The notes under the pieces: generated by a model
What the model was told of the DNA's origin: nothing
Seen by the model: only the letters and a program-made list of their open reading frames with translations
Databases searched by the model: none
Shown here: piece after piece, positions 5,312 through 25,993 of the stretch
Position numbering within the stretch: position 1 is the first letter of the stretch
How the letters are laid out: each line of letters opens with the position of its first letter
Source: Micromonospora sp. FIMYZ51
GTDB taxonomy: Bacteria > Actinomycetota > Actinomycetes > Mycobacteriales > Micromonosporaceae
Length of the DNA: 64,000 nt
Reading direction: 5' to 3'
NCBI RefSeq assembly: GCF_038246755.1
Contig: NZ_CP134706.1
Coordinates: forward strand, 2,046,001-2,110,000
Made by a program: the position numbers and the translations under genes

Positions 5312-5383
5312 GGGCGATTAGCTCAGCGGGAGAGCGCTTCGTTCACACCGAAGAGGTCACTGGTTCGATCCCAGTATCGCCCA
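5312..5383 (+). tRNA. tRNA-Val (anticodon CAC)
   Basis: A 72-nt cloverleaf without encoded CCA. The acceptor stem GGGCGAT (5312-5318) pairs with ATCGCCC (5376-5382), discriminator A 5383. The D arm is GCTC...GAGC, the anticodon stem CTTCG/CGAAG has the loop TTCACAC, giving anticodon CAC (GTG codons), and the T arm contains GGTTCGATCC. Its 3' 43 bases (5341-5383) are the integration target of the two elements that follow, and the gene is kept intact because attL restores the 3' end. Confidence 0.97.
5341..5383. repeat. att repeat copy A (attL, inside tRNA-Val)
   Basis: 43 bp from GTTCACACCG to the discriminator A, covering the anticodon loop, T arm and acceptor 3' strand. The same sequence recurs at 17148-17189 (one base shorter) and 25931-25973. 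These are the direct repeats expected from tyrosine-integrase insertion into a tRNA 3' end. Confidence 0.93.
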
Positions 5384-5391
5384 CGCACGTC

Positions 5392-5424: not shown

Positions 5425-5434
5425 CTGCTGCCCG

Positions 5435-5456: not shown

Positions 5457-5459
5457 TCG

Positions 5460-6680: not shown

Positions 6681-6877
6681 CAGGCGGCCTCCTGCCGGTC
6701 GACCTGGTCGCGGATGTAGTCGTCGACCCATTCGGGGAGGATGCGGCGGTACTTGCCGTCCTTGATGGAGCGCAGCTCACCGGTGGCGATCTTCATCTTG
6801 ACCTTGGAGATGCCGAAGCCGAGCAGCACGGCGACCTCGGCGGGCGAGTACCAGCGGGGGCGGAGTTCGTGGTTCAT
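6680..6877 (-). CDS. xis: excisionase, helix-turn-helix domain protein
   Basis: 65 residues with a MerR-like winged HTH (YSPAEVAVLLGFGISKVKMKIATGELRSIKDGKYRRILPEWVDDYI), the common excisionase/HTH_17 fold. It lies between rep and int with a four-base overlap to rep (ATGA, 6874-6877) and a one-base overlap to int, the standard rep-xis-int operon of these elements. It bends att DNA and directs Int to excision. Confidence 0.9.
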   Translation of the reverse strand: MNHELRPRWYSPAEVAVLLGFGISKVKMKIATGELRSIKDGKYRRILPEWVDDYIRDQVDRQEAA

Positions 6878-8442
6878 GCGGCGGCTCCGCTGAGCCAGGA
6901 TTCGTGGGCGAGTTCTTCCCGGCCGACGCGTCTGCTTTCCCGTCGCTGTCGGGCGGCGGTGTTGGCGAGCAGCGCGTCACCGTCGGTGCGCCAGCCGGCC
7001 CCGAGGTAGGTGAGCGTCCCGACCGTCAGGGTGTCGGCGGGTTCGTCATCTTCGGCGCGGCGGTAGGTGGCGCGGGTGTCGCGGAGCAGGCCGAAGGTGA
7101 CCGAGTAACGGCGGGCTTTGGTCAGGAAGTGGCCGCCGAAGCCGAGCATGTGTGCCCAGCGGCGCAGTCCGGCGTAGGGATTCGGTGTGGTGTCAACGCG
7201 GCCTTGACGGTCGCCGTCCTGTGCATCGCTGCGGGTAGTGCGGGTGGCCGTGGGGCGTCCGAGTCGCCAGCAGGCGTCGATGAGGCGGGCGACGTGGTCG
7301 CCGTCGGGGTTGGCGTAGGCGTCGATGGTCTCGGAGGTGAGGCGGGTCGAGGTGTGGCCGGTGACCTCGGTGGCTTTGGTGGCGTACTTGGCGAGGTAGG
7401 CGGCCACCTTGGCGTCGGTCACGTCATCGTCGCCGCTGCCGATGCGGCGTACGTCGGTCTGCTCTCCCCAGGCCACCGGCCAGCCGTCCGGACGGTCGGG
7501 GTGTGGCGGGGTGGTGACGGTGATCTGCCGGGCGGCGGCGTGCACGGCGGCGTCCAGGTCGTCGGCGGTGATGCCGGCCGGCGGCGGCACCAGAGCGCCG
7601 GAGTCGCCGGAGTCGACGCCGTCGAGGCGCAGCAGGACGTGGAAGTGGACAGCTCCCCGGCGTTGCATCTCGGCGACCTTGCCGTGAGACACCCGAACCG
7701 GCGGCACCCGACGTACCCGGCCCGAGTCGGCGACGACCTGGACGTGGCCGATGCCGCGTCGGCGGCATAGGGCGGCAAGCTGACGTTCGATCGCCTGCTT
7801 GGTGCGTCGCCACAGCTCACCGGCAAAGCCGTTCCACACAGCCTGGTGGTCATGGTCGTAGCAGTCCAGACAGAGTGGCCGCCCGAGCCGCGGATCGTCG
7901 GCGTCGTGACGGGCGAAGCAGGCCGCGGGCTGCCCGTGCGCGCAGGTGTCGGCGTCACGGCGGGCGCGGCACGGTGCGGGTCGGCAGTCGCACCGCTGGC
8001 GGGTGGCGCAGGTGTGGCGGGGGATGTGCCGGTGGTGGACCGCGCCGAAGGAGGGTGCGGTGAAGGTGGCGAACACGACCGGATGCCGCGCGACGGTGGC
8101 GGGGACGGTCTTGCCACCGGTCAGGCCGGTGCGGACGACCTGGAAGGCGTCACCCGCGTAGACCCAGGCGCAGTCCGGGCACTGCGACGCACGGCGGTTG
8201 CCGCACGCCTTATAGATCGCCCGGTCGGGCAGCTCATCGGTGTGCAGCTCCCGGACGATCCGGCCGGTGTCAGCGTCCACGGCGGTGAGGGTGCCGGTGA
8301 GGCGGATCGGGCGGGTACAGCCGCCAGCGGAGGCGGTGTGCTCCAGCCAGCCGAAGTAGTCCGGCGTGGCGACACGGTGCAGGGCTTGGGCGAACCGGCC
8401 GGCGGCGAGGCCGGGCCGGGACAGGGTGAGCGGGGCGGACAT
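6874..8442 (-). CDS. repSA: RepSA-family replication initiator
   Basis: 522 residues related to the pSAM2 RepSA rolling-circle initiators. Cys clusters lie at CGNRRASQCPDC and CATRQRCDC...C (about residues 80-170), followed by LCLDCYDHDHQAVWNGFAGELWRRT. The AVHFHVLLRLDG segment contains the H-x-H of a HUH endonuclease. The C-terminal half has the conserved AAYLAKYATKATE and H...MLGFGGHFLTKARRYSVTFG. A strong GAGGAG Shine-Dalgarno precedes ATG 8442. It drives replication of the excised circle. Downstream xis and int are coupled to it. Confidence 0.92.
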   Translation of the reverse strand: MSAPLTLSRPGLAAGRFAQALHRVATPDYFGWLEHTASAGGCTRPIRLTGTLTAVDADTGRIVRELHTDELPDRAIYKACGNRRASQCPDCAWVYAGDAFQVVRTGLTGGKTVPATVARHPVVFATFTAPSFGAVHHRHIPRHTCATRQRCDCRPAPCRARRDADTCAHGQPAACFARHDADDPRLGRPLCLDCYDHDHQAVWNGFAGELWRRTKQAIERQLAALCRRRGIGHVQVVADSGRVRRVPPVRVSHGKVAEMQRRGAVHFHVLLRLDGVDSGDSGALVPPPAGITADDLDAAVHAAARQITVTTPPHPDRPDGWPVAWGEQTDVRRIGSGDDDVTDAKVAAYLAKYATKATEVTGHTSTRLTSETIDAYANPDGDHVARLIDACWRLGRPTATRTTRSDAQDGDRQGRVDTTPNPYAGLRRWAHMLGFGGHFLTKARRYSVTFGLLRDTRATYRRAEDDEPADTLTVGTLTYLGAGWRTDGDALLANTAARQRRESRRVGREELAHESWLSGAAA

Positions 8443-10860: not shown

Positions 10861-10912
10861 ACAGCCGGCAGCGGCCGGGCATGGACGGTTGCCCGAGGTC
10901 GCAGACGTGGAT

Positions 10913-11681: not shown

Positions 11682-11798
11682 CCGGTGATGGTATGGCGAG
11701 CGCTCAGTCTGGTACAGGGCAGCTGAGTTCGACAGCAGCAGTGAGGCGAGTCGCCAGTCGTCGGCCGCGGATAGTCACCCGAGGTCATCCACGCGAAC

Positions 11799-11839
11799 GG
11801 ACCCCGCCGGACGACGCGCCCAGATTTTCCAAGCGAGGG
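11799..11839. repeat. 41-bp direct repeat, copy 2
   Basis: Second copy of the repeat at 10913-10953 (38 of 41 positions identical by eye). It lies upstream of the SLATT start, while copy 1 lies downstream of its stop. Confidence 0.8.
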
Positions 11840-11940
11840 GCCAAAATGCCCCTGGCTTCAGGCCGTCGCCAGGCCGTAGAACGTCAACCAGTAGTGACCA
11901 AAATGACACTCGATGCCGAGTGTTTGTGCAGCCCAGGCTA

Positions 11941-12828: not shown

Positions 12829-12963
12829 TAGTGATGGGCGACCTATGTCCGGTTCGCCTGGCACCCGGTTCCAGTTCAACGCCAAGTGACGTGCGGCGGT
12901 GCGAGTCGGGTGCCGGACAGACGATGGTAACCCTAGGCATGCGTTCCGATACGTTCGATCACC

Positions 12964-13362: not shown

Positions 13363-13492
13363 CCACCTGCCGTGGGAGAAGGCGCAGGGGAGGCCCTTCC
13401 ATCCGACACTGGTGCGGTCAGCGGCGTAGAGCTTGCTGCCGGGACGCATCGGCGCCGCAGCGCGCGGTGAGGCCGGCGCGGATACTGGCGGG

Positions 13493-14059
13493 GTGGTGGA
13501 GAAGCAGGCGACGGAGTTGACCCGGTGGACCATCCACGGCGAGCGGGTGGTTGATGACTCCCGGCGAGCGCGGCTCAGCATCGCCGAGGTGGAGTTGCCG
13601 GACGGGGTGCGCTTCGAGCAGTACGTGATCCGGGCTCCCCGGTCGGCCATGGTCGCCGTGCTCGATGATCGGGAGCGGCTGCTGTTGATGCGGCGGCACC
13701 GGTTCGTGTTCGACCGGTGGGTGTGGGAACTGCCTGGCGGCTACGTCGATGACGAGGAGCAGCCGGCGCAGTGCGCGGCGCGGGAGGTCGAGGAGGAGAC
13801 CGGCTGGCGGCCCCACGCGGTGGAGCCGTTGCTCTCCTTCCAGCCGTGGGTCGGGACTGCCGACGCCGAGAATCTGCTGTTCCTGGCGCGGCAGGCCGAG
13901 CACATCGGCGCACCCGTGGACGTGAACGAGGCTGAGCAGGTCGCGTGGATTCCGCTCGACGAGGCGTACGGGTTGGTGTCTCGGGGTGAGATCGTCGGTG
14001 CCGGCACGGTGATTGCGGTGCTGGAGTTGGTGGCGCGTAAGGCCCGGGGAGAGCTGTAG
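13493..14059 (+). CDS. NUDIX hydrolase (ADP-ribose pyrophosphatase-like)
   Basis: About 188 residues from the GTG at 13493 (an earlier ATG at 13433 would add an unlikely leader). The Nudix box has GGYVDDEE...REVEEETGW, satisfying G-x5-E-x7-R-E-U-x-E-E-x-G-U. A SAMVAVLDDRERLLLMRRHRF strand-loop precedes it and LSFQPWVGTADAENLLFLARQ follows, as in the ADP-ribose/NADH group. NUDIX genes are regular cargo of actinomycete integrative elements, paired with XRE regulators; their physiological role there is not settled. Convergent with the next regulator (5 bp apart). Confidence 0.85.
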   Translation: MVEKQATELTRWTIHGERVVDDSRRARLSIAEVELPDGVRFEQYVIRAPRSAMVAVLDDRERLLLMRRHRFVFDRWVWELPGGYVDDEEQPAQCAAREVEEETGWRPHAVEPLLSFQPWVGTADAENLLFLARQAEHIGAPVDVNEAEQVAWIPLDEAYGLVSRGEIVGAGTVIAVLELVARKARGEL

Positions 14060-14063
14060 AAGG

Positions 14064-15518
14064 TCAGCGTCGTGGGCCGAGGCTGGCGTCGATGCGGCCG
14101 GTGAAGTGCCGGACGGCGGGTAGTCGCCGGTGTGGGGCGAGTTGGGTTTGCAGGTCGCGGAGGTAGCGGACGGCCCTGGCGGAGCGGAGTTGGGTGGTCA
14201 GGGTGAGGGCTTCTGCGCCGATGGTGCAGGCGCGGTCGGGGTTGCCCTGTTGGGCGTGGATGCTGGCGAGTAGTGCGAGGTTGAAGGCTCTGCCGCGTAC
14301 GTAGCGGTTGTCCATGTGTAGGGATCGGACGGCGAAGCGTTCGGCGTGGGTGTTGCGGCCGAGGGCGTGGAAGCAGTGGCCGAACTTGGCGGACAGGTAT
14401 GCCTCGTCGAAGTAGCTGAGCCATTGCGGGTCGGTGCTGCGGTCGGCCCGGTCGAGGGCTTGTTCTGCCTGGTGCAGGGCGGCGGCGCAGGCCCGTTCGT
14501 CGTGGGCTTTGGCCAGGGCGTGGGCTTCCATGACGTGGGCTTCGGCGGACAGGACGGGGACCCCGGCGCGGCGGGCGGTCCGGCCGGCGGCGCGGGCGAG
14601 GTCGAGTCCGGTGGCGGTGTGGCCGAGGTAGGTGGCCTGGTGGCTCATGGCGGCGAGGATTTCCGCGCCGAGGCCGTCGTCTGCGGCGGCGTGGGCGAAG
14701 TCCAGGGCGAGGGTGAGGTGCCGCTGGGCGATGCCGTGCTCGGCGGTGTCGTACGCCTGCCATCCGGCGAGCTGGGCCAGTTCGGCGGCGGCGCTGAGCA
14801 GCCGTTGGCCGGTGGGGTGGTCGTAGCGGCCGTCGGTGAGCAGCGGGGTCACCTCCTGGTGGAGGTAGCGGGCGACGGTGTCGCGGGCGTGCCCGCCGCC
14901 GTACTGGTTGTCTAACTGGCGATAGGTCGCGGTCATCGCGCGGATGGTGTCAATCTGCGGTTGACCGACGGCGTCCCGGCCGGGTTGGGTCACCGGGGCT
15001 GGATCGGGGGCGGTGAACCAGCGCAACGCCGGCAGGGTGTAGCCGGCGGAACTGAAGGCCACCTGCCGGAGTACCTCTCGACGGTTCACGTCACCTCGCC
15101 AAAGCTCTGCGGCACTGCGTACGTCCTCTTGCCAGGTCCGGGTGGTTGGCGGCTCGCTGGGTCGACCGGGGGTGAGCCGGCCGGGTTCGGCCGGCGGCGC
15201 GGCCTGCTTGGGTGCCAGGCCCATCGCGATTCGCGCCTGGTCGGGCATCCGGCATCCGTCGGCGATCCGCTCCAGGACGTCGATTGAGGTGACCTTGCGT
15301 CCGGCCATGATTCGGCTGACGTAGCCCTGCTCCAGCCCGACGGCGGCCCCGATCCGGCTCTGACTCGCGCCGGTGAGGCTGGTGATCCAGCGGAACAGCC
15401 CGGCGATGTCGCGGGCGGCCAGGGCGGCGAGCACCTCGCCGTGCGACCACGCGTCGTCTGGTATTCGAAGCGGATCGAGCAGCACGGCGGCTCCTAGCGT
15501 CGCGTTTCGACTACTCAT
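14064..15518 (-). CDS. XRE-family regulator with TPR-like sensor region
   Basis: 484 residues from ATG 15518, chosen because the longer frame upstream is Arg/Pro-rich antisense. The N-terminal HTH (about residues 30-75) reads ITSLTGASQSRIGAAVGLEQGYVSRIMAGRKVTSIDVLERIADG. A twin-Arg-like stretch (NRREVLRQVAFSSAGYTLPAL) follows. The C-terminal about 300 residues form helix-turn-helix TPR-like repeats (LAQLAGW.AYD...A..HL..AL..A..A). This architecture is frequent in Micromonospora and Streptomyces and resembles RRNPP receptors, but no ligand is known. It diverges from the 15660 gene across a 17-bp palindrome. Confidence 0.8.
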   Translation of the reverse strand: MSSRNATLGAAVLLDPLRIPDDAWSHGEVLAALAARDIAGLFRWITSLTGASQSRIGAAVGLEQGYVSRIMAGRKVTSIDVLERIADGCRMPDQARIAMGLAPKQAAPPAEPGRLTPGRPSEPPTTRTWQEDVRSAAELWRGDVNRREVLRQVAFSSAGYTLPALRWFTAPDPAPVTQPGRDAVGQPQIDTIRAMTATYRQLDNQYGGGHARDTVARYLHQEVTPLLTDGRYDHPTGQRLLSAAAELAQLAGWQAYDTAEHGIAQRHLTLALDFAHAAADDGLGAEILAAMSHQATYLGHTATGLDLARAAGRTARRAGVPVLSAEAHVMEAHALAKAHDERACAAALHQAEQALDRADRSTDPQWLSYFDEAYLSAKFGHCFHALGRNTHAERFAVRSLHMDNRYVRGRAFNLALLASIHAQQGNPDRACTIGAEALTLTTQLRSARAVRYLRDLQTQLAPHRRLPAVRHFTGRIDASLGPRR

Positions 15519-15569
15519 GGTGTTCAAGGCAAGAGCGTATGGCGACCGCTCGCGCCGGTCGAGCCGCTT

Positions 15570-15586
15570 CATGTCACGGTGACATG
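15570..15586. promoter_or_regulatory. 17-bp palindromic operator candidate
   Basis: CATGTCAC-G-GTGACATG is a perfect inverted repeat with one central base. It lies in the 141-bp intergenic space between two divergent regulator operons (14064-15518 and 15660-17019), the expected place for an autoregulatory site of one of the two XRE proteins. Confidence 0.6.
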
Positions 15587-15659
15587 ACCGCTGGTCATGG
15601 GCCCGTCTCTTAGCCTTTCGTAGCTTCTCCGTCACTTGATGTGGCGCGGGAGGCAAGAG

Positions 15660-15830
15660 ATGCCGGGTAAGGGCGACGAGCCGGCGGTGAGCCGGGGTGA
15701 GCAGATTCAGGAGGCTGAGCGGGAGGCGGCCAGGCGGCGGCTTCTCGCCCAGGCGGAGGCGGACCGCATTTCGGTAGAGGAGACGACCCGAGCCGTACCG
15801 GATCGGCGGTGGCGTCGTGGGCAGCGTTGA
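15660..15830 (+). CDS. 56-residue charged protein paired with an XRE-TPR regulator (element 1)
   Basis: ATG 15660 is preceded by GGGAGG. The product has a conserved core RGEQIQEAEREAARRRLLAQ followed by AEADRISVEETTRAVPDRRW, highly helical and charged. A paralogue of 54 residues at 24349-24513 in element 2 has nearly the same core, and both overlap the start of an XRE-TPR regulator. The conservation of such a short protein in two elements argues that it is real. It has no secretion signal. Role unknown; a regulator partner or modulator is a reasonable guess. Confidence 0.65.
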   Translation: MPGKGDEPAVSRGEQIQEAEREAARRRLLAQAEADRISVEETTRAVPDRRWRRGQR

Positions 15831-17019
15831 GTTGTTGCCGGTTGGCCGGCGGGTGGCGTATTGGCGGGGTCGGCGGAAGTTGTCGCAGCAGGTGTTCGCT
15901 GATCGGCTCGGCAAGTCGAAGAGCTGGGTCGACAAGGTCGAACGTGGAGTCCGGCGGCTGGACAAGCTGTCGACGCTTCAGGAGATTGCCCGCGTACTCC
16001 GCATCGACGCCGCCGTTCTTGTGGGCCAGGATGCCGCGCCGGTCCGAGCAACGGGTCGCGGCGACGGCGTCGACCGGATCAGGGCGGCGCTGTCCCGCTA
16101 CGAGATCCCGTTGGGCAAGCCGGCGGGTCGCCGTCCGGTGGTGTCGGTGGATCGGATGCTGCGGGATGTGGGGTACGCGTGGACGACGTTTCAGCACGCC
16201 CGCTACCCACAAATGGTCGATTTAGTGCCGGACCTACTTACCGATGCCCAGCGCACCGATGCCGCGGCTCCGGTAGCGGGCCGGGTGCCGCTGGTCGAGG
16301 CGTACCGGGTCACCGCCGCTCTGCTGGTCAAGCTCGGTGACGCTGAGCTTGCGTGGCTGGCCGTGGACCGGGCGATGCTCGCCGCCACCGGCGATCGGGA
16401 GCTGGTGGCTGCCGCAGCCGTCCAGCTCGGCCAGGTGTTGCGCGCGCTCGGGCGGGCGCGGGAGGCGAAGTCGGTGATGCTCGCCGCCGCGTACCGGATA
16501 GCCCCGCCGGTGATCGACCACGGCCTGCCAGCGGAATTGTCCCTGTGCGGGACCCTGCTTATCCAGGCCGGCCTGGCGGCGGCGCAGGACGGGAACGAGT
16601 CCGCCGCCGGGGATCTGATCGCTGAGGCCGCCGGTATGGCGGAGCGGGTCGGCGACAGGTACGACCATCACCGCACCGCTTTCGGGCCCACCGCCGTGGA
16701 CCTGGCCCGCGCCGCCGCAGCCGTCGAAGTCGGCGACACCGAGGAGGCGATCGTTTGGCACGAGAAGGCCACCGCGCGGTCCGGCTGGCTGTGGCTACCC
16801 GCTGAACACCGCGCCGCGCACCTGCTCGACATCGCCCGCGCCCACCTGCATGCCGGGGACGTGGGCAACGCGGCTCGCATGCTGACCGAAACCGAGCGCA
16901 TTGCACCGGCCGAGACCACGCACCGGCCTGTCGCCCGGGACATCCTTGCCGAGGTTGCCCGCGACCCGCGCGCCCCGACCACGATCGCCAAGCTCGCTGC
17001 CACGCTCGGGGTCGGCTGA
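15817..17019 (+). CDS. XRE-family regulator with TPR-like region, right end of element 1
   Basis: 400 residues from GTG 15817, overlapping the upstream small gene by 14 bases. The HTH lies at residues about 9-65 (VGRRVAYWRGRRKLSQQVFADRLGKSKSWVDKVERGVRRL), followed by IDAAVLVG. The remainder is TPR-like (LVEAYRVTAALLVKLGDAELAWLAVDRAM... HLLDIARAHLHAGD...A..ML). The element-2 protein at 24503-25681 is a close paralogue in sequence, order and distance to attR. It probably controls element genes or host genes; the target is unknown. Confidence 0.82.
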   Translation: MGSVELLPVGRRVAYWRGRRKLSQQVFADRLGKSKSWVDKVERGVRRLDKLSTLQEIARVLRIDAAVLVGQDAAPVRATGRGDGVDRIRAALSRYEIPLGKPAGRRPVVSVDRMLRDVGYAWTTFQHARYPQMVDLVPDLLTDAQRTDAAAPVAGRVPLVEAYRVTAALLVKLGDAELAWLAVDRAMLAATGDRELVAAAAVQLGQVLRALGRAREAKSVMLAAAYRIAPPVIDHGLPAELSLCGTLLIQAGLAAAQDGNESAAGDLIAEAAGMAERVGDRYDHHRTAFGPTAVDLARAAAAVEVGDTEEAIVWHEKATARSGWLWLPAEHRAAHLLDIARAHLHAGDVGNAARMLTETERIAPAETTHRPVARDILAEVARDPRAPTTIAKLAATLGVG

Positions 17020-17043
17020 GCAGCGCTACACGCGGATGAGAAG

Positions 17044-17064
17044 TACAGCAGTGAAGTACAGCAA
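17044..17064. repeat. putative integrase arm-type sites (TACAGCAR x2), right end of element 1
   Basis: TACAGCAG at 17044-17051 and TACAGCAA at 17057-17064, about 85 bp inside att copy B. The same pair with the same 13-bp periodicity occurs at 25827-25847 inside copy C, and similar sites lie inside copy A. Confidence 0.5.
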
Positions 17065-17147
17065 CCGCGCCAGCCGAACCTGGCCGAGAAGCGCCTCAGC
17101 AGGCCGTCTGACCTCGCGTCGAGCCCGATCCGACCCGCTTGCCGAGA

Positions 17148-17189
17148 GTTCACACCGAAGAGGTCACTGGTTCGATCCAGTATCGCCCA
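17148..17189. repeat. att repeat copy B (junction of elements 1 and 2), one base deleted
   Basis: Identical to copies A and C except that the run of three C in the T-loop region (GATCCCAG) is two C here (GATCCAG), giving 42 bp. This is attR of element 1 and attL of element 2. Confidence 0.9.
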
Positions 17190-17208
17190 CCATCGAAACA
17201 ACGAAGGA

Positions 17209-17234
17209 GAGGCACCCTCAAGCGAGGGTGCCTC
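17209..17234. terminator. hairpin terminator after att copy B
   Basis: Stem GAGGCACCCTC (17209-17219) / GAGGGTGCCTC (17224-17234) with loop AAGC, followed by T-rich sequence. It ends the integrase remnant, like the hairpins after copies A and C. Confidence 0.7.
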
Positions 17235-17249
17235 TTGCTGATTGCATCG

Positions 17250-17560
17250 CTAGTCGCCGTTGGAAGTCAGCGGATCATCAGCAAACGCGTCGCGGATGCG
17301 CCGATCCCGCCCGTCCGACCGGTGGGTGTAGAGGTTGAGCGTGGTCGACGGCTTCTCGTGGCCCATCACAGCCTGGACGTCGTTGACCGGAACGCCGCGC
17401 GACACCAGCTTGGCCGCGTACGAGTGCCGCAGGTCATGGAACCGCAGCCCGTCCGGAGCCATCTTCGCCACGTGCGCGACCGCTCCCCGCTCGGTGGTGA
17501 ACTCCGCATTCCACGGGACGCCTTCCGCGTCGAACCAGCGACGGCCGCCAGACGCGAGCC
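17250..17560 (-). pseudogene. tyrosine integrase, C-terminal fragment (element 2)
   Basis: About 100 residues: MAPDGLRFHDLRHSYAAKLVSRGVPVNDVQAVMGHEK followed by TTLNLYTHRSDGRDRRIRDAF. It includes His-x-x-Arg (HDLRH), the second His (GHEK) and the catalytic Tyr (LYTH), but the N-terminal domains and the first catalytic Arg are missing. The upstream sequence is replaced by the end of the ABC permease gene at 17567. Its sequence differs from the element-1 integrase. It cannot function alone, so element 2 is not self-mobile. Confidence 0.85.
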
Positions 17561-17566
17561 CAGCCG

Positions 17567-19126
17567 TCAGCCGGCGACGAGGTCTCGCCGACGGTAGACC
17601 ACCGTGGACCCGATGGTGAGGACCACGGCGAACACGGCCAGGGTGAGAGCGGCCGGCCGATCCCACGCAGCCCGGGGAACGGCCCCGACCCAGTGCAGGG
17701 GCGAGAGCTGGCGGGCCCATGACGGCAGTTCCAGGAGGTCGGCCCGCAGGCAGACCACGAGGGCCCAGCCGACGGGCAGCCACACGATGGAGACCCACCG
17801 GGGGCTGAGCGAATGGACGGCCAGGGCGAGCCCGATCAGCAGAACGACGGCCGGCAGGTAGGCGGCAGTGGCGGTCATCCCCCGGCCGATGTAATGGGCT
17901 TCACCGAAACCGGCCGCGAGGCCCAGGCCGGTGGAGAGGCCACCCGTGAGCAGGACGAGCACCGACCACGCCGTGACCAGCAGGGCAACCGATGCCCACC
18001 AGCGTGGACGGCTGACCGCGGCAGACAGGCTGTATCCCACCCGGCCGGAGGTCTCCTCGGTCGCCAGCCACTGCGTGATGTGGATCCCCGCTGCTGCGGC
18101 GAGCAACGCGGTGAGCTGGACGAAGATGGTCAAGCTGGCGTTGACCGGGTCGTCGTGGTCGGCTCGGGCGACGGCGTTGAGGGCGTTCATCTGGCGGGTC
18201 AGGTATCCGAACGCGAAGGCGAACAGTGCCGTGGCGGCGATCCACCCGACACCGACGCCGGCGGTGAGCCGGGCGAGGAGGGTCAGGGGTGAGCGTATCC
18301 AGGTCGGCGCGGCGGCCGGCCCGGGTCGGGGGGTGATGATGCCTGCCCCCAGGTCACGCCGGGCGGCCACGGCGGCGGCGGTGGCGAGCGACGCGACGGC
18401 CAGCGCGCCGAAGGCGGCCCACGGCCACGACGGCGGTTCCGCGCTGAACGGCCGGATTTCGGCCAGCCAGGACTGCGGGTTGATCCAGACGGCATCCCAC
18501 TGACGCGCATCCACCACAGCCCGGGCCAGGTAGCCGACGAGCCAGCATCCGGTGGCGAGGATGTACGCGGTCCGGGCCGTCCGGCAGCATTGCGCGATCA
18601 AGGCGCCGAGAGCGGTGAATGCGAGCATGAGCATCGCCAGACCACCGGCGTAACGCCAGGATCCCGCGATGGGGTAACCCAGAGCCGTGAGTGCGACCCC
18701 GTTGAGTACGGCGGTCAGCGCCGCCGTGGCCGCGGCGGCGCTGGCTCCGGCGGCAGCCGGCGCCAGCCGGTGGACCGGGTAGGAGGTCAGGATGTCCAGG
18801 CGTCCGGTGTCTTCGAGGCCGCGGGTGAACCGGATCGCCAGATGCAACCCGATCAGGGGGATCATGATCAGCGTCAGGTAGCCCATCTCGTTGGCCAGGA
18901 TGCCGCCGAGGGTGTCCAGGGCGTACCCGCGGCCCTGGAGCGCCGCACTGCCACTCATCACCTGGTACGCGTCGGCGTAGTGGTCGCGGGCGGCCTGCTC
19001 GGAGTACGTACCGTTGATGGTGGCCGCACTCGTGGCCACCAGCGCGGCGACCACGATCGGCCAGCCGATCACCTGCGGCAGGCCGGTACGCAAGCTCAAC
19101 GACAGAAAGCGCCAGTAGCCGGTCAT
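17567..19126 (-). CDS. ABC-2 type exporter permease (polyketide-antibiotic-transporter-like)
   Basis: 519 residues with about 12 membrane segments, two similar halves (each begins with a long extracellular loop after a first helix, e.g. ATINGTYSEQAARDHYADAYQV). It ends VVYRRRDLVAG. It overlaps the ATP-binding gene by four bases (ATGA, 19123-19126). Pairs of this type (annotated as polyketide antibiotic transporters) export hydrophobic compounds, and the divergent TetR gene fits ligand-induced export. Its 3' end abuts the broken integrase, suggesting a recombination boundary. Confidence 0.8.
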   Translation of the reverse strand: MTGYWRFLSLSLRTGLPQVIGWPIVVAALVATSAATINGTYSEQAARDHYADAYQVMSGSAALQGRGYALDTLGGILANEMGYLTLIMIPLIGLHLAIRFTRGLEDTGRLDILTSYPVHRLAPAAAGASAAAATAALTAVLNGVALTALGYPIAGSWRYAGGLAMLMLAFTALGALIAQCCRTARTAYILATGCWLVGYLARAVVDARQWDAVWINPQSWLAEIRPFSAEPPSWPWAAFGALAVASLATAAAVAARRDLGAGIITPRPGPAAAPTWIRSPLTLLARLTAGVGVGWIAATALFAFAFGYLTRQMNALNAVARADHDDPVNASLTIFVQLTALLAAAAGIHITQWLATEETSGRVGYSLSAAVSRPRWWASVALLVTAWSVLVLLTGGLSTGLGLAAGFGEAHYIGRGMTATAAYLPAVVLLIGLALAVHSLSPRWVSIVWLPVGWALVVCLRADLLELPSWARQLSPLHWVGAVPRAAWDRPAALTLAVFAVVLTIGSTVVYRRRDLVAG

Positions 19127-20049
19127 CGCGCCGCGCCCTCGGCCACGGCGTAGGGGACGTCACTGCGGTAGTTGGTGAGGAACAGTTCGTCGAGGCTGGG
19201 TGGCTGGACGTTGAGGCTGCTCGGACCGGCGGTGAGGACGCAACCGACTGCTGCGGCAAGGGTTGCCGGGCCGGCCCGGAAGGTGACGTGCGTGCCGTCC
19301 GGCCGCGTCACCACGGACAGGTCGACGAGGCCGTCGAGCCGATCCAGTCCGGACACCGCACACCTTGTCACCGCGTCCACCCGGGTGAGGGTGTGATCAC
19401 GCAGGTCGGCCAACGTGCCGGTCCGGATCACCGTACCGCGCCTGATGATGCTCACCCGGTCACACAGAGCTTCCGCCTCGGACAGGATGTGGCTGCTCAA
19501 CAACACCGTGCGGCCGTCGTTCCGCAGCTCTCGCACGCACTGTTGGAACACCTCCTCCATCAGCGGGTCCAGTCCCGAGGTCGGTTCGTCGAGCAGGAAC
19601 AGGTCGGCGTTCGTGCCGAGCGCCGCGATCAGTGCCACCTTCTGCCGGTTGCCCTTCGAGTAGGTCCGCGTGCGTTTCGTCGGGTCCAGTTCGAACCGGT
19701 CGATCAACTCGCGCCGGCGACGCGGGTCGGTGCCGCCGTGGAGCCGGCCGAGGATGTCGATGCACGCTCCGCCGGTCAGTCCCGGCCACAGCGCCACGTC
19801 GCCCGGGACGTACGCCAGGCGCCGGTGGGCCTGCACCGACTGGGCCCAGCAGTCCAGGCCGAAGACCTTTGCCTCGCCGTCGTCCACCCGAAGCTGGCCG
19901 AGCAGGGCCCGGATGGTGGTGCTCTTGCCGGCGCCGTTGGGGCCGAGGAAGCCGTGCACCTCGCCCTTGGCGACCGTGAGGTCCAGGCCGTTGAGCGCCA
20001 TCGTCCGGCCGAACGCCTTGCGCACTCCTCGCACGGTGATCGCATCCAT
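19123..20049 (-). CDS. ABC transporter ATP-binding protein (drug-exporter type)
   Basis: 308 residues from ATG 20049. Walker A is GPNGAGKST, the signature is YSKGNRQKVALIAAL (a DrrA-like variant of LSGGQ), Walker B is DLFLLDEPTSGLD, and the switch His is in SSHILSE. The C-terminal extension (about 90 residues) is typical of the DrrA/CcmA group. It energises the permease encoded downstream. Transcription is divergent from the TetR gene with a palindrome between them. Confidence 0.88.
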   Translation of the reverse strand: MDAITVRGVRKAFGRTMALNGLDLTVAKGEVHGFLGPNGAGKSTTIRALLGQLRVDDGEAKVFGLDCWAQSVQAHRRLAYVPGDVALWPGLTGGACIDILGRLHGGTDPRRRRELIDRFELDPTKRTRTYSKGNRQKVALIAALGTNADLFLLDEPTSGLDPLMEEVFQQCVRELRNDGRTVLLSSHILSEAEALCDRVSIIRRGTVIRTGTLADLRDHTLTRVDAVTRCAVSGLDRLDGLVDLSVVTRPDGTHVTFRAGPATLAAAVGCVLTAGPSSLNVQPPSLDELFLTNYRSDVPYAVAEGAAR

Positions 20050-20070
20050 CCTGGCATCCTGACACAGGAA

Positions 20071-20083
20071 GACAGTAGCTGTC
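20071..20083. promoter_or_regulatory. palindrome, candidate TetR operator
   Basis: GACAG-TAG-CTGTC lies between the divergent ABC exporter and TetR genes. It covers an in-frame ATG at 20084, which argues for a later TetR start (20129 or the GTG at 20138). Confidence 0.5.
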
Positions 20084-20128
20084 ATGTTGGCAGCCACTAC
20101 CGATAGCGGCCGCCCGCCGGTCGATAGG

Positions 20129-20722
20129 ATGACGGGCGTGCCACTTAACCTGCGTCAACGCAACCGGATGGCCGCAATCCGGGCCGTCCAGGACACGGCC
20201 ATGAACCTTTTCGACGCCCAGGGTTACCACAACGTCACCATCGAGGACATCTGCCGGGAAGCGGGCGTTTCGCCGTCCACCTTCTACCGCTATTTCGTGA
20301 CCAAAGAGGGACTGTTCACGGTCGATCCTTTTGCCGCCGTCGGTGCCGACGGTTTCCGCGAAGTCCTCGACCTCGACGACCTACCCGGCACGATGGAACG
20401 CCTCGCGGCCAGCGCCGGGCCCGGCGGCCCGTGGCGCGGAATGCGCTACGTACTGGAAGAGCCGACCGTGCGGGCCGCCGTCTACGCCACCATGGATGCC
20501 ATGGCCGGCCGCCTCGCCGCGGCTCTCGCCGACCGTGGACACGACGCCATCCAAGCCCGGGTGCTGGCCCGCACCTACCTGTTCGGCGTCTACTTCGGCG
20601 CCCTCGAACAATGGCACAGTGACGGCCGGACCCGGCCCATCGGCGAATACGCCCGCGCGGCTCTGGACGCGATCGAGACCCGCGCGGGCGCCGCCGGACG
20701 GCAGCCGGGTGCGGCAGACTGA
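20129..20722 (+). CDS. TetR-family regulator of the ABC exporter
   Basis: About 197 residues. The N-terminal TetR HTH (RQRNRMAAIRAVQDTAMNLFDAQGYHNVTIEDICREAGVSPSTFYRYFVTKEGL) is complete with the YFxTKE motif. The C-terminal ligand domain is helical and ends in a disordered tail. The start at 20129 was chosen because 20084 overlaps the putative operator; GTG 20138 is equally possible. Divergent orientation implies repression of the exporter operon and of itself. Confidence 0.82.
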   Translation: MTGVPLNLRQRNRMAAIRAVQDTAMNLFDAQGYHNVTIEDICREAGVSPSTFYRYFVTKEGLFTVDPFAAVGADGFREVLDLDDLPGTMERLAASAGPGGPWRGMRYVLEEPTVRAAVYATMDAMAGRLAAALADRGHDAIQARVLARTYLFGVYFGALEQWHSDGRTRPIGEYARAALDAIETRAGAAGRQPGAAD

Positions 20723-21177
20723 CGCCACGCCGGCGCGCCCGCGCGGCGTTCCGCTCGGGCCGGCAAGTGGCAGGCACGGTTTTCGCGGGTGATTCGCACA
20801 GCTGGCGGATTTCGTCGCCCGACTGCGGCAAACCTTGACAGCACGGCGTCTGGATCTGCCGCCGACCGAACGGCCGGTTATCACCCGGTCGAGACGTCTC
20901 CGCCGATGCCGATCTCGCGCCGGTCTACCAGGCCAACCGATCCAGCAGTGAGGTGCGGACCGATCCGCCGCCCAGCGTAACGCTCGGCGACTGGTACGCG
21001 GTGTTGCCCGTGGTCTCCAGGTCGCCACCTGTCCGCGTGGCCGCTTCAAGCGCTGACAACCGGACAGAGGGATCAACTGCGTCAGGCTGTCATCGGTGCG
21101 GGGCGGTGTACCGTCCGAAGTGGCAGCCTGCCGGGGATGGTCGGCAGGGATCTCATGTGACCTGGGAGTGCCGCTGA
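20723..21177. other. intergenic region, no gene seen
   Basis: 455 bp between the TetR gene and the frameshifted regulator. No frame looks coding. It presumably contains the promoter of the 21178 gene, whose ATG is preceded by GGGAG. Confidence 0.4.
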
Positions 21178-22351
21178 TGCCTCGTCGGCCTATACCTGCT
21201 GATCCGTCGATTGGTGATCGCATCCGGGCTCGTCGGGAGTTGCGTGGTTGGAGTGTGCGGTACGCGGCCAGTCGGGGATCTCTCATACGTCGTGGTCGCG
21301 GATTGAGCGTGGTCAGCAGCGCACGGACCGGTACATGGTGGTGGATCTGGCGGCGGCTCTTGAATGTTCGGTGGTTGACCTGACTGGGCAGGCGTACATG
21401 CCGGCTGATCGACAGCTTGATGCGGCTCGCATCGATGCGGAGCGGGTGTGGCGGATCATGATGGATACGCCGATGGCTAGACGTTCCAGTGCGGTGGCGA
21501 CTGTTGAGCAGGTGCGTCGGGAGGCGGCGCTCGTGCGTGAACTGTACGGGCGGTGCGACTACGCGGGTGCGCTGCGGCGGCTCGTTGATCTGGTGCCGGC
21601 GATGCACAGTCTGGCTGATCGACGGGTGGCGTTGATGGTGATGGTGCCGGTGTACGGCGTGGTGATGGGGTCGTTGCTGAATGTGAGTTTTCCGGCGCAC
21701 GCATGGCTGGCTGCGGAGCGGTGTGCCGAGGCGGCGGGGTTGCTCGATGACCCGGTGGCGGTCGGGGTCGCGGCGGCCAATCGAGCGCGGGTGTTGGCCT
21801 ATTCGGGGGCGTACGGTCCGGCGCGGACGCTGTGTGATGCCGCCGCATCTGATCTTGCCGGTAGCGGGACGGAAGGGGCGTTGGACGTGCTGGGGTTCCT
21901 GCACCTGGCGCGGGCGCTTCACCTCGGCGGGCTGCATGACGAGGCCGGTGCGGAGGAGCATCTTGCCGAGGCCGGGCGGATCGCGGCGCACACCGGGGAA
22001 ACCGAGAGCTGGGATCTCGCCTGGGGGCCACGGAACGTGACGCTGTGGTTGATGGCGTTCCTGCTCGACACGGGCCGTCCGGAGGCGGCGATGAAGACAG
22101 CGGCGGGTGTGGAGTTGGCGGGTCTGCCAGCGGTGCGACAGATTTACTTCTGGCTCGATATGGGCCGTGCCGCCGAGGCGGTCGGTCGGGACCGCGATGC
22201 CGTACGGATGCTCCTCGCGGCGGAGCGGATCGGGCCGCAGCATGCCCGCTCGTCGGTGGCGGCGCGGGAGACGGCCCGGTCGTTGCTGCGCAAGGGGTCG
22301 ATGTCACCGGAGTTGCGAGGACTGTGCGAGCGGCTGAGCCTGGCCGCGTAG
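21178..22351 (+). pseudogene. XRE-TPR regulator interrupted by a frameshift in the HTH
   Basis: The frame from ATG 21178 gives MPRRPIPADPSIGDRIRARR then LRGWSVRYAAS, the first HTH helix. The recognition helix and the rest (QSGISHTSWSRIERGQQRTDRYMVVDLAAALECSVVDL and about 320 TPR-like residues) are in another phase, entered at about 21280. Joined, they give a complete regulator of about 390 residues, so one base is missing or extra there. The TPR part is open to 22351. It is a recent pseudogene, a sequencing error, or a case of recoding. Confidence 0.75.
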
Positions 22352-22446
22352 TTAGGGCGGCTCCGGTGCTCGCCGACTTGTGGCGAGGAATGACAAGCTT
22401 GATATGGCTGCTTCCGCAACAAGGGATCTCGGTTCAGATCCAGCCC

Positions 22447-22761
22447 TCAGTGAGGTGAGTTCCAGTGCCGGAACAGTTGCTGTACCTCCGCATGCCAGCG
22501 GACGGCCCCGTCGGTCCAGCCGGCACCTGGCTGTCCTGTTGTGGCATTGACAACCAGTGCGGGCAATGATGGTTCACCGGCTGCGATGCACTCATCGGCG
22601 ACCTGGGCGAGCACGTGGCGCATCTGATTTCGGAGATCTATGCCGGCCATGCCGATGGCCCGCCCCAGTTCGCCGTAGGTGAGCAGTGACCTTCGCATTG
22701 CGGCGATGATCAGGGCTGCACGAGCCATCCGGACCCACTGTTCCCGTTGCTCACTTGCCAT
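22447..22761 (-). CDS. conserved hypothetical protein (104 aa)
   Basis: 104 residues: a helical N-terminus (WVRMARAALIIAAMRRSLLTYGELGRAIGMAG), then LRNQMRHVLAQVADECIAAGEPSLPALVVN..TGQPGAGW and an aromatic C-terminus (WHAEVQQLFRHWNSPH). The order LTYGELG / lr.qm..vL / P-x-L-x-ALVV / G-x-PG is one I have seen in uncharacterised proteins of mobile elements, but no function is established. It diverges from the XRE-TPR gene at 23013. Confidence 0.55.
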   Translation of the reverse strand: MASEQREQWVRMARAALIIAAMRRSLLTYGELGRAIGMAGIDLRNQMRHVLAQVADECIAAGEPSLPALVVNATTGQPGAGWTDGAVRWHAEVQQLFRHWNSPH

Positions 22762-23012
22762 GCCTGCAAGCGTGACACCTGCTCATCTCTTGATCGACCC
22801 TTCGAACAGCCCACTCGCCACGGGCCGTACGGATGGCGTCGAAACTGCCCTGGCGTACTGGCCTGAAGTTGTTGGTTCAAGGTCGGGATGCTGCCAGGAC
22901 CAGGGGTCGCCGGCGTGTGAGGGTTATGGGACGGTCTGTCGATCGGTAGCGTTGGGCGTGATCGCGGCCGATCAATCGGTTCCGCGTCCCGCGCTATGCG
23001 AGGAGGTTCCGG

Positions 23013-24224
23013 GTGGATTCCTTGCCGGAGTTGACGTTCGGGCAGCGGTTGAAGGTCTACCGGGAGCGGTCCGGGAAGACTCGGGCGGTGCTCGGTGGGT
23101 TGGTGGGGCGCAGCGCCGAGTGGGTCAAGGCGGTGGAGACCGATCGGATTCTGCCGCCGCGCATTCACATGCTGGATCGGATCGCGCGTGCCCTCAAGAT
23201 CGACGTGTCGGTGTTGGCCGTGGAGCTTGGTGACCGCTCTGCTGTGGTCAACGGGCCGGAGCATCCGGCGCTGGGATCGGTCCGGGACGCCGTTAACCGC
23301 GTCGCGTTCTCCGGCGACGACCCGGCCGAATCGCTGTCCAGTCTGAGGGAGCGGCTTGCGGTGGCGTGGCGGGCACGTCATCAGGCGTCGGATCACCGTA
23401 CGGTGCTGGGTGGGTTGTTGCCGGGGCTGCTGCGGGACGGGCAGCGTGCCGTGTTGGCGTACGAAGGTGACGAGCGTCGGCAGGCACAAGCGCTGTTGGC
23501 AGAGACGCTCGGGTTGGCGCAGATTTTCATTGCGTACCAGCCTGCCGCCGAGTTGCTCTGGCGGGTGGCGGACCGGGCGATGGTGGCGGCACAGGAGTCC
23601 GGCGACCCGGAGGCGATCGCGCGGGCGGGGTGGTTCCTGGGTCAGGTGCATCGGGACGCGGGGGACTGGGACACGGCGATGGCGGTGACCCTGGACGTGC
23701 TCTCGGCTCTGGAGCCGCAGGTGGTCGATGGGAGCACGAATCTGCTGGCGCTGTGGGGTGCACTGAACTTCGAGGCCGCGTACACAGCTGCTCGTGCAGG
23801 TGAGGAAGGACGGGCGTGGCGGTACTGGGATCGTGCGGACCAGGTGGCGCAGCGCCTGCCGCAGGGTTTCTACCAGCCGCAGACGTCGTTTTCCCGGGTC
23901 ATCATGGGCGCTCACGCGGTGACGGTGGCGGTGGAGTTGCAGAAGTCGGGTGAGGCGGTGCGGCAGGCCCGTCGTCATGATGCGGCGGCGATTCCGTCGA
24001 GGCCGCGTCGGGCACGCCATCTCATCGAGGTCGCGCGGGCGCACTACGGCAAGGACGACAAGGAGTCGACTGTGGCGACGCTGCGGCGGGCGTACGAGTC
24101 GGCTCCTGAGACGATCCGCTTCAATGGGTACGCCCGTCAGATCACCTTGGATTTGCTCGACGGGCCACGCTCCACCCGCAACGATGCTCGTGATCTGGCG
24201 ATAAAGGTTGGCCTCGCCTCTTGA
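23013..24224 (+). CDS. XRE-family regulator with TPR-like region (intact parent of the 32.7-kb copy)
   Basis: 403 residues from GTG 23013 with AGGAGG upstream. The HTH is at residues about 8-65 (FGQRLKVYRERSGKTRAVLGGLVGRSAEWVKAVETDRILPPR). The sensor region (about 120-400) is TPR-like: AELLWRVADRAMVAAQESGDPEAIARAGWFLGQVHRDAGDWDTA and further repeats, ending LIEVARAHYGKDDKE. A truncated near-identical copy lies 9 kb away at 32717-33407, outside the element. No target is known. Confidence 0.82.
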   Translation: MDSLPELTFGQRLKVYRERSGKTRAVLGGLVGRSAEWVKAVETDRILPPRIHMLDRIARALKIDVSVLAVELGDRSAVVNGPEHPALGSVRDAVNRVAFSGDDPAESLSSLRERLAVAWRARHQASDHRTVLGGLLPGLLRDGQRAVLAYEGDERRQAQALLAETLGLAQIFIAYQPAAELLWRVADRAMVAAQESGDPEAIARAGWFLGQVHRDAGDWDTAMAVTLDVLSALEPQVVDGSTNLLALWGALNFEAAYTAARAGEEGRAWRYWDRADQVAQRLPQGFYQPQTSFSRVIMGAHAVTVAVELQKSGEAVRQARRHDAAAIPSRPRRARHLIEVARAHYGKDDKESTVATLRRAYESAPETIRFNGYARQITLDLLDGPRSTRNDARDLAIKVGLAS

Positions 24225-24348
24225 ATCGCGGGTAGGAACCTTACCCATTCCGCCTCGCGACTGACCGTAGTTTTTCGCTCACGGGATGCGGTGGGCGATG
24301 TTGGTCCTTCAGGAGCATGACGCCGCGCCCCTACCAGCGGAGGTGGGG

Positions 24349-24513
24349 ATGAGCGAGAACTCTTCGTCCAAGAGTCGGGGCGAGCAGATCCAGGAGGCGG
24401 AGCGGGAGGCGGCGAGGCAGCGGATTCTTGCTCAGGCTGAGGCGGAACGGATACCGGTCGAGGAGACGACTCGGGCGGTGCCGGATCGGCCGTGGCGTCG
24501 TCGTGACCGGTGA
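24349..24513 (+). CDS. 54-residue charged protein paired with an XRE-TPR regulator (element 2)
   Basis: ATG 24349 follows GCGGAGGTGGGG. After a Ser-rich start (MSENSSSKS) the core RGEQIQEAEREAARQRILAQ and VEETTRAVPDRPWRR matches the element-1 protein at 15660-15830 at most positions. The stop overlaps the GTG of the next gene by 11 bases. It is predicted to be helical and cytosolic. No known family is recognised. Confidence 0.65.
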   Translation: MSENSSSKSRGEQIQEAEREAARQRILAQAEAERIPVEETTRAVPDRPWRRRDR

Positions 24514-25681
24514 CCGGGTGCCGATCGGTCGGCGGGTGGCGTATCTGCGGGCGCGGCGGCGGTTGTCGCAGCAGACCCTTGCTGATCGGTTGGGCAAGTC
24601 GAAGAGTTGGGTGGACAAGGTCGAGCGTGGGGTCCGCCGCCTGGAGCGGGTGTCGACGATCCGGGAGGTCGCCTCGGTGTTGCGGGTCGACGCGGCGACG
24701 CTGCTCGGTCGGGACGCCCAGCCCGCCGGTATGGTCGAGCGGGACGAGGACGTGGCGCGGGTTCGGGCAGCCTTGTCGGCGTACGAGATAGGGCGTGACC
24801 GGCCGGCGCCGGTGCTGCCGGACGACCAGGTTGCCCGGCACGTCGGGTACGCCTGGACGGCATATCAGCATGCTCGATATCCGCAGGTGGTGGAGCTGAT
24901 ACCGAGTCTGCTCAGCGATGTGCGGCGCGCGTATGCCCGGGATCCGTCGGCTGGGCGTCTGGTGGTGGAGGCGTATCGGGTGACGGCTGCCCTGTTGGTG
25001 AAGCTGGGTCAGGCGGATCTGGCGTGGCTGGCGGCGGATCGGGCGATGGCTGCCGCTGCGGGTGATCCCGTGTTGGTGGGGTGTGCGGCGGTGCAGCTTG
25101 GGCAGGTGTTGCGGTCCTCGGGTCGGGCGCGGTCGGTGTTGCTGGCGGCGGCGTACCGGATTGCTCCTTCGGATTTTGATTCCGGTGGGGTGGGGGAGGT
25201 GTCGTTGTGTGGGGCGTTGGTGGTGCAGGCGGGGTTGGTGGCGGCTCGGTGTGGTGAGGAGCGGGTCAGCGGCGAGTTGTTGGACGAGGCTGCTGAGATG
25301 GCGGTGCGGGTGGGGGAGGGGTTCGACCTGCATCGGACGGGGTTCGGGCCGACGGCGGTGGAGCTGGCTCGGGTAACCGCTGCGGTGGAGTTGGGTGACG
25401 GGTCGGCGGCGGTCGCCCGGCACCGGCAGGCGATCCGCCGGGCTGGGTGGGGGGTGTTGCCGGTTGAGCATCGGGCCGCGTACCTGATTGATGCTGCCCG
25501 CGCGTATCTCCAGGTCGATGATCCGGCCAACGCGGCGCGGGTGCTGCTGAATGCAGAGCGGCTGGCGCCGTACGAGGTACGCCGCCGCCCGGTGGGCCGG
25601 GACGTGCTGGCGGAGATCGCCCGTGCTCCGAAGGCTCCGGCGATGGTCGGTGAGTTGGCGCTGAGCCTCGGGCTGGTGTGA
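24503..25681 (+). CDS. XRE-family regulator with TPR-like region, right end of element 2
   Basis: 392 residues from GTG 24503. The HTH (IGRRVAYLRARRRLSQQTLADRLGKSKSWVDKVERGVRRLERVSTIREVASVLRVDAATLLG) and the TPR-like remainder parallel the element-1 protein at 15817-17019 throughout, including the HVGYAWTAYQHARYPQVVELIP stretch and the C-terminal RRPVGRDVLAEIARAPKAP. It is the last gene before attR. Co-conservation with the overlapping small gene suggests a functional pair. Confidence 0.82.
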   Translation: MTGDRVPIGRRVAYLRARRRLSQQTLADRLGKSKSWVDKVERGVRRLERVSTIREVASVLRVDAATLLGRDAQPAGMVERDEDVARVRAALSAYEIGRDRPAPVLPDDQVARHVGYAWTAYQHARYPQVVELIPSLLSDVRRAYARDPSAGRLVVEAYRVTAALLVKLGQADLAWLAADRAMAAAAGDPVLVGCAAVQLGQVLRSSGRARSVLLAAAYRIAPSDFDSGGVGEVSLCGALVVQAGLVAARCGEERVSGELLDEAAEMAVRVGEGFDLHRTGFGPTAVELARVTAAVELGDGSAAVARHRQAIRRAGWGVLPVEHRAAYLIDAARAYLQVDDPANAARVLLNAERLAPYEVRRRPVGRDVLAEIARAPKAPAMVGELALSLGLV

Positions 25682-25826
25682 CCGGTGACCGCGCCGTTCC
25701 TGTCGCTCGCGCAGATCCGTAACCGGCTGACCCTCGCGGCCCGGCGCACCCTTCGCGACCGGAGGTGGCAGGGGAGCCGGTGCCCGGTGTGCGGCGCGGC
25801 GGATGCCCTCCGGGCGCTGGCGAAAA

Positions 25827-25847
25827 TACAGCAGCGAAGTACAGCAA
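25827..25847. repeat. putative integrase arm-type sites (TACAGCAR x2), right end of element 2
   Basis: TACAGCAG at 25827-25834 and TACAGCAA at 25840-25847, same order and spacing as at 17044-17064. The surrounding sequence to the att repeat is also recognisably related between the two right ends. Confidence 0.5.
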
Positions 25848-25930
25848 CCGTGCCAACCGAACCCGACGAGCACGAGCGCCACCAGGCCGGACGACCTCGC
25901 ACGGCACCCGATCCGGCCAGCCTGCCGTGA

Positions 25931-25973
25931 GTTCACACCGAAGAGGTCACTGGTTCGATCCCAGTATCGCCCA
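25931..25973. repeat. att repeat copy C (outer attR)
   Basis: 43 bp identical to the tRNA-Val 3' end at 5341-5383. It marks the outer right boundary of the tandem array. Confidence 0.92.
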
Positions 25974-25993
25974 CCGTAAATATTCGCAGGTTG

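Follow-up and report, generated by a model that had tools for sequence, protein, structure and literature searches.

What does a charged protein of 54-56 residues do when its gene runs into that of a regulator combining an XRE-type helix-turn-helix (HTH) with tetratricopeptide repeats (TPR)? The question arises from a 64-kb stretch of Micromonospora sp. FIMYZ51 DNA (the window; positions 2046001-2110000 of the 7.05 Mb single-contig genome), for which a preliminary description had reported two such gene pairs, one at the right end of each of two elements, A and B. Both pairs are indeed found there, and in both the genes overlap. The evidence assembled here points to an independent small-protein family tightly linked to one regulator clade, with natural fusions and losses, and we tentatively favour the view that the small protein stays in the cytoplasm and, encoded in cis, acts as a protein modulator of the XRE-TPR regulator whose gene comes next. 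The genes in question are as follows.

15660..15830, plus strand: small protein 1 (small 1, 56 aa), ATG start, TGA stop
15817..17019, plus strand: REG1, XRE-TPR regulator 1 (400 aa), GTG start; HTH_31 at 1.2e-8, phrog_5823 at 4e-75; overlaps small 1 by 14 nt
24349..24513, plus strand: small protein 2 (small 2, 54 aa), ATG start, TGA stop
24503..25681, plus strand: REG2, XRE-TPR regulator 2 (392 aa), GTG start; overlaps small 2 by 11 nt

The two module stretches are 80% identical across 300 nt, and when all six frames of the window were scanned with the small-protein profile, small 1 and small 2 scored 113 and 99 bits, the next-best open reading frame (ORF) reaching 9 bits. Start codons of the small genes and regulators were picked by homology; most copies of the small gene begin with ATG and are preceded by a ribosome site of the GGAGG type. 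Alignment of 32 copies with few gaps gave the consensus core RGEQIQAAEREAAKRRLLAQAEAERIPVEETTRAVPDRRWRR, preceded by a variable first dozen residues. Among 127 distinct sequences the ratio of nonsynonymous to synonymous substitution (dN/dS) was 0.27 for the core and 0.26 when the overlap was excluded, with one helix block at 0.19 and the N-terminal block at 0.69. Mean differences at codon positions 1, 2 and 3 were 0.093, 0.089 and 0.436 (94 distinct 29-codon blocks). Because dN/dS is close to 0.26 and differences are in excess at the third codon position, the small ORF is, judging from substitution patterns, a genuine protein under purifying selection. In its predicted structure (mean pLDDT 72) residues 12-35 form a single long helix, and the position of the tail is loose. 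Pfam, NCBIfam and PADLOC searches with the small proteins gave no family match, and a PHROG match of small 1 at E 0.011 was not meaningful.

Linkage to the regulator was counted within the genus at 119 small-gene places, contributed by the 42 genomes with matches out of 61 genus genomes. A listed regulator lay behind the small gene at 80/119 places, within 11 nt in 76 of the 80 and at 177-695 nt in the other four, and all 76 close pairs (gap ≤11 nt) shared one relative frame. At 27 of the remaining 39 places the regulator fell below the listing cut, was in pieces or lay at a contig edge, so that a regulator or a piece of it was found behind 107/119 small genes. The 12 others comprise five fusions to CRCG, a type of Cys-rich small protein (L122, L136, L144, L145, L147), one small-CRCG pair (L111), L139a, where the small gene is kept with a regulator cut to 39 residues (87% identity), L146, at a contig edge, and four further places taken up below. 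In named genomes (80 loci) the regulator was present at 76/82 small places, one locus being under the profile cut, and 72/73 pairs with a gap below 40 nt were in one relative frame. Among the six named-genome places without it, L200 keeps a 37-residue regulator end (70% identity), and the small gene at L186, L189, L213, L226 and L232 is followed by CRCG and/or PWPC, a second Cys-rich type. The two genes form a conserved, coding pair; as a rule they are neighbours and overlap, with a single fixed frame relation. Among the outcomes that the preliminary description named as speaking against it were a small frame free of purifying selection and one found without the regulator as often as with it; the dN/dS of 0.26 and the 107/119 places are the opposite of both.

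The link from regulator to small gene is looser than that from small gene to regulator. Over the best 150 regulator rows of a longer list, the small gene stood beside 80/150 regulators among the matches listed: 74/91 at 320 bits or more, 5/16 at 300-320 bits and 1/43 below 300 bits, with 0/18 in the last 18 rows, all at about 44% identity. In the regulator tree the small gene accompanied 96/116 rows with 12 label changes, against a shuffled mean of 18.9, which suggests that it is common in this clade and has been lost or gained several times. A regulator match at E 1.3e-78 or better occurs in 61/61 genus genomes. At one locus (L169, 4660-6484) the next gene after a relative at about 44% identity encodes a flavoprotein (PF02441); the two may be a conserved XRE-TPR/flavoprotein pair in their own right.

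The family is concentrated in one genus. The FIMYZ51 genome has six copies of the small gene, and genomes in which it is present have 1-10. A draw of relatives gave matches in 42/101 genomes, all 42 among the 61 genus genomes; a family draw gave 88/300 genomes in 4/44 genera, the single strong case outside the genus (G211, locus L291) showing an unchanged succession of upstream XRE-TPR gene, small gene and regulator; a class draw gave 7/296 genomes, the four outside the genus being weak and partial. Weak matches outside the genus (G407, G589, G389, G368, G107, G155) covered short parts and were excluded as members. A protein search united 574 homologous clusters of short proteins; among the 120 matches listed, every cluster with a named taxon was Micromonospora, the protein was almost always 'hypothetical protein' where named, and no cluster had a Pfam domain. 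All 80 relatives kept from named records were Micromonospora, two under the name Verrucosispora, and strong matches among those listed came only from Micromonosporaceae genomes and IMG/VR contigs. A diverged small gene precedes the regulator in 3/4 IMG/VR loci with a close regulator (L264 at 60 bits, L262 at 48, L263 at only 28), and the fourth contig, L266, has no small gene ahead of it. These IMG/VR small-regulator loci have an extra Cys-containing small ORF between small gene and regulator; L262 and L264 are provirus-like contigs with the row xre, diverged small gene, CWRC-type small protein, regulator.

Both regulators have HTH_31 and HTH_3 above the Pfam cut-off, with Pfam TPR matches below it, and both match phrog_5823 over the full length (E 4e-75 and 6e-70), a phage-protein family named only 'transcriptional regulator' of which the small proteins are not members. 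The AlphaFold2 model of REG2 (pLDDT 89) is all-helical, its best Foldseek match being PlcR (E 5.7e-4, the sole match below 1e-3) with ComR and PrgX among the top matches. The regulator has an HTH at its N-terminus and, in the predicted model, a TPR superhelix at its C-terminus. REG1 and REG2 are 61% identical. Because both have nearer relatives in other genomes (89% for REG1, 84% for REG2), a recent duplication within the window is rejected, and the duplication is old; the module had been called duplicated, and this holds insofar as both elements have the same pair.

On this basis we propose that the overlap would couple translation, such that small protein and regulator are made together, and that the small protein may use its long charged helix and its conserved VEETTRAVPDRRWRR tail to dock on the regulator, most likely on the TPR part. 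Docking would then switch DNA binding or activation by the regulator, in the way thought to apply to BldB-type (DUF397) proteins with WhiJ-type regulators. The direction of the switch, like operator use, is conjectural. The operon could control its own expression by way of a dyad ahead of the small gene, for which the window offers one candidate.

15569..15587: 19-nt palindrome TCATGTCACGGTGACATGA, candidate operator from a dyad scan, between a divergent NsdA-family gene and small 1

Of 108 leaders ahead of the small gene, 69% contain a 7-bp dyad, compared with 36% in base shuffles. Just ahead of the ribosome site of the small gene we also observed a GC-rich hairpin or dyad with a conserved GGTCCTTCC..GAGCA centre (18 loci aligned; 24268-24343 in the window). 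This leader hairpin pattern is present in 19/119 leaders; on folding, L198 gave a z of -3.25 and the window copy a z of 0.41, no better than shuffles.

The closest working precedent is, by analogy, the WhiJ-BldB or XRE-DUF397 system of Streptomyces, in logic and not by descent. As presented in excerpts of two reports (PMC10294661, PMC10364602), it likewise pairs an XRE-HTH regulator with a small partner, in actinobacteria and in large paralog sets per genome. Excerpts of the first report no sign of BldB binding DNA in Streptomyces venezuelae, and a WhiJ paralog required for a target gene that is over-expressed in the bldB mutant (PMC10294661); those of the second relate that in Streptomyces both development and antibiotic production are affected by XRE regulators that have small DUF397 proteins as partners (PMC10364602). 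Here the small gene is upstream and overlapping, whereas DUF397 proteins are described as encoded downstream (PMC10364602). DUF397 had itself been put forward as the partner family. We rejected this identity: the small protein has no Pfam match, and the 26 DUF397 genes of the genome lie elsewhere, 0/26 being among the six small-gene places. The small protein is best read as analogous to BldB/WhiJ partner logic yet unrelated in sequence. Literature searches showed no description of the small-regulator pair, which could still be in print. The earlier suggestion of an undescribed regulator-modulator pair is borne out in part, by a small protein outside known families, its purifying selection and the linkage at 107/119 and 76/82 places; the modulator half of it is what we propose tentatively above. 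Recurring across many species, on the chromosome as well as on mobile elements, the pair probably represents a novel type of control part built into such regulators, and the family offers ready comparisons for studying the intracellular switching of TPR regulators.

Several observations weigh against a direct modulator. The small gene is missing at 70/150 regulator rows among the matches listed, the regulator is alone in 20/116 tree rows, and the relative at about 44% identity, seemingly present in all 61 genomes, has no small gene at the two loci inspected (L169, L170). Four small places (L115, L142, L143 and the weak L148b) have neither a regulator nor an explanation, and a check of the orphan L115 for a regulator remnant found none. 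The mirror-tree correlation between small protein and regulator (r = 0.41, reached by 0/2000 shuffles) is explicable by linkage alone, the partial correlation with the TPR part being just 0.18. The TPR fold of the regulator matches not only RRNPP receptors but also eukaryotic TPR proteins, human anaphase-promoting complex/cyclosome (APC/C) subunits among them, and the TM-scores are low. Finally, at 5/119 places the small core is fused to a CRCG domain and this regulator is missing, and the partner of the small protein may be the CRCG protein.

This last point leads to the Cys-rich genes of the same operons, one of which is the third gene of the element B module.

25685..25930, plus strand: CPxC small protein (CPXC type) directly behind REG2; start resembles CPXC proteins, no Pfam match

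In a scan of 144 loci, which pools genome sets and counts some places twice (e.g. L111 and L186), CPXC relatives followed the regulator at 39/144, and CRCG and PWPC were present at 17/144 (some the same place twice) and 16/144. Gene orders include CRCG-PWPC-small-REG-CPXC (L196) and xre-small-CRCG-REG-CPXC (L014), and tested examples of the Cys-rich proteins had no Pfam or NCBIfam match. By gene content the operon is larger than two genes, with CRCG, PWPC and CPXC recurring; the earlier 'two-gene module' is a real pair too narrowly drawn. The small core is N-terminal in the CRCG proteins P0005-P0007 and C-terminal in P0010, P0012 and P0014. Because fusions occur in both orders, small core and CRCG may act in one complex, which competes with the direct-modulator reading. 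Within the direct-modulator reading the Cys-rich proteins would be further subunits or sensors of the regulator complex.

The strongest rival makes the small protein the output of the operon: an effector whose level is set by the autoregulating XRE-TPR gene, and whose target, perhaps shared with the Cys-rich proteins, might be RNA polymerase, RNA or something else in the host. It would explain the CRCG fusions in both orders and the operons in which only a different upstream XRE-TPR gene is seen (the five fusion loci above), as well as a small-protein C-terminus that stays near-invariant while the partner regulators differ by up to about half. However, the same regulator clade stands behind 107/119 places, which is tighter than an output requires, and CRCG is found at just the 17/144 loci. 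We consider an autoregulated effector possible, and prefer the co-translated intracellular modulator. A wider proposal, which we offer as speculation and think rather unlikely, is that a coupled, never-secreted charged-helix adaptor joins the TPR regulator to interchangeable Cys-rich proteins (CRCG, PWPC, CPXC and the CWRC of IMG/VR contigs). Together these would form a multi-part metal- or redox-sensing switch, a third partner logic beside exported RRNPP peptides and DUF397, spread up to ten times per Micromonospora genome and also on integrative elements and provirus-like contigs.

A toxin-antitoxin pair, as earlier proposed for XRE-DUF397 pairs, would fit the two-gene overlap, the mobility and the small partner. 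We regard it as very unlikely, given that small genes are kept where the regulator is largely deleted (L139a, L200) and that the regulator is also found alone; in addition, excerpts of PMC10364602 state that none of fourteen XRE-DUF397 pairs acted as toxin-antitoxin on overexpression, and reject that role for them.

Signalling of the RRNPP type, in which the small protein would leave the cell, be cleaved and, once taken up again, bind to the TPR domain, was suggested by the architecture of the regulator. The receptors PlcR, ComR, PrgX, Rap and AimR likewise combine an HTH with a TPR superhelix (here a predicted fold) and a neighbouring small gene, and PlcR is the best Foldseek match. Measured against the RRNPP criteria of PMC10075063, the small ORF (54-56 aa) is within 10-100 aa, the receptor (392/400 aa, with a predicted TPR fold) within 250-500 aa, and the genes are direct neighbours; the export signal with a hydrophobic region that these criteria also include is missing. 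The small protein is instead charged and helical, its highest 12-residue Kyte-Doolittle mean in 71 sequences was 1.04 (median 0.43), and its C-terminal part is near-identical across regulators, the opposite of a private code. Of the earlier claim the receptor architecture stands, and the peptide signal, which we think highly improbable, does not. Least credible is a mere leader that sets regulator translation irrespective of its amino-acid sequence: the fixed overlap and the GGAGG-type site ahead of most small genes would suit it, but strong purifying selection on the peptide and its fusion to CRCG domains largely refute it.

It remains to place the two modules in their surroundings. Two tandem inserts, element A (5385-17191) and element B (17192-25975), follow a tRNA-Val(cac), the sole match in an Rfam scan of 5000-27000.

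5312..5384, plus strand: tRNA-Val (cac), attachment site of the two tandem elements (ARAGORN, Rfam RF00005, 3'-end pattern search)
5460..6680, minus strand: tyrosine integrase, element A (PF00589 1.5e-20)
6680..6877, minus strand: excisionase-like HTH_17 protein, element A (PF12728 8e-6, just under cut-off)
6874..8442, minus strand: RepSA replication initiator (pSAM2 family), element A (PF20199 6e-145)
13493..14059, plus strand: Nudix hydrolase near the right end of element A (PF00293 1.4e-21 on ORF 13433-14059; start predicted)
14064..15500, minus strand: NsdA-family XRE-TPR regulator, divergent from small 1 (NF053720 6e-113; ORF extends to 15965)
17040..17066: doubled GTACAGCA arm-like repeat behind REG1
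17160..17191, plus strand: tRNA-Val 3'-end copy at the A/B junction, one base shorter than in the tRNA and so outside the 2-mismatch pattern
17250..17597, minus strand: integrase C-terminal remnant, left end of element B (PF00589 profile positions 125-170 only)
23013..24224, plus strand: XRE-TPR regulator upstream of small 2 (HTH_31 4e-13)
25824..25849: doubled TACAGCA arm-like repeat of element B
25943..25975, plus strand: tRNA-Val 3'-end copy, right end of element B (pattern search)

The right end of element A consists of the Nudix gene, the opposite-strand NsdA-family gene, small 1 and REG1, and that of element B of the XRE-TPR gene, small 2, REG2 and the CPxC gene. Both ends have doubled TACAGCA repeats and a tRNA-Val 3'-end copy, and both modules sit just inside the direct repeat holding the tRNA-Val 3' end. 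Element A, in which a tRNA site adjoins genes for an integrase, an excisionase-like protein and RepSA, qualifies by gene content as pSAM2-type. It shares with the actinomycete integrative and conjugative elements (AICEs) of this type (PMC3218068) the int-xis-RepSA block, the tRNA site and the Nudix and NsdA-like genes. In excerpts of that report these AICEs are described with XRE and GntR regulators and Pra but no overlapping small protein, and most modules studied here show no such element nearby. The NsdA/NsdB TPR-like regulators (NF053720) are also XRE-TPR proteins near AICE ends, and one adjoins module 1; the NsdA-type gene of the window, in contrast, has no overlapping small gene from the family described here, and an NCBIfam search found no NF053720 match for REG1 or REG2.

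Where elements such as A and B carry the pair next to their attachment site, it may serve as an accessory regulatory cassette. The attachment-site (att) arm repeat, with at most one mismatch, lies behind 17/109 modules that have 400 nt downstream, a lower bound, and was found at more loci when three mismatches were allowed; the four own-genome copies outside the window have none. A tRNA T-arm pattern lies behind 3/71 regulator rows, one place being counted twice. We rejected an element-end location as the general case on these two counts. Because the arm repeat is found at just 17/109 modules, sensing of element copy, as first suggested, is not a general role. Relatives of the window integrase or RepSA (above 100 bits, within 12 kb) accompany 5/17 arm-repeat modules against 0/92 others, in a scan that pools genome sets with some places twice and in which most loci hold 5 or 10 kb per side, so that a missing integrase is weak evidence. 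The elements are one vehicle, not the sole home, of the small-regulator pair.

Other features of the two elements were noted in passing. Element A encodes an AbiTii-domain protein (9521-10468, minus strand; PF18864 4e-14) of low third-codon-position GC content (GC3 0.57), possibly defence cargo, and a DDE_Tnp_4 transposase (11999-12778, plus strand); a 91-nt direct repeat, 76% identical (10863-10953 and 11749-11839), flanks a small ORF (11109-11432). In element B an XRE-TPR gene (21179-22351) has its HTH part apparently, by eye, in a different frame from the rest and is probably a pseudogene. An inability to form tandem arrays is discussed, in excerpts of PMC3218068, as a possible barrier to several AICEs per genome, and the tandem array at the tRNA-Val is notable against that proposal.

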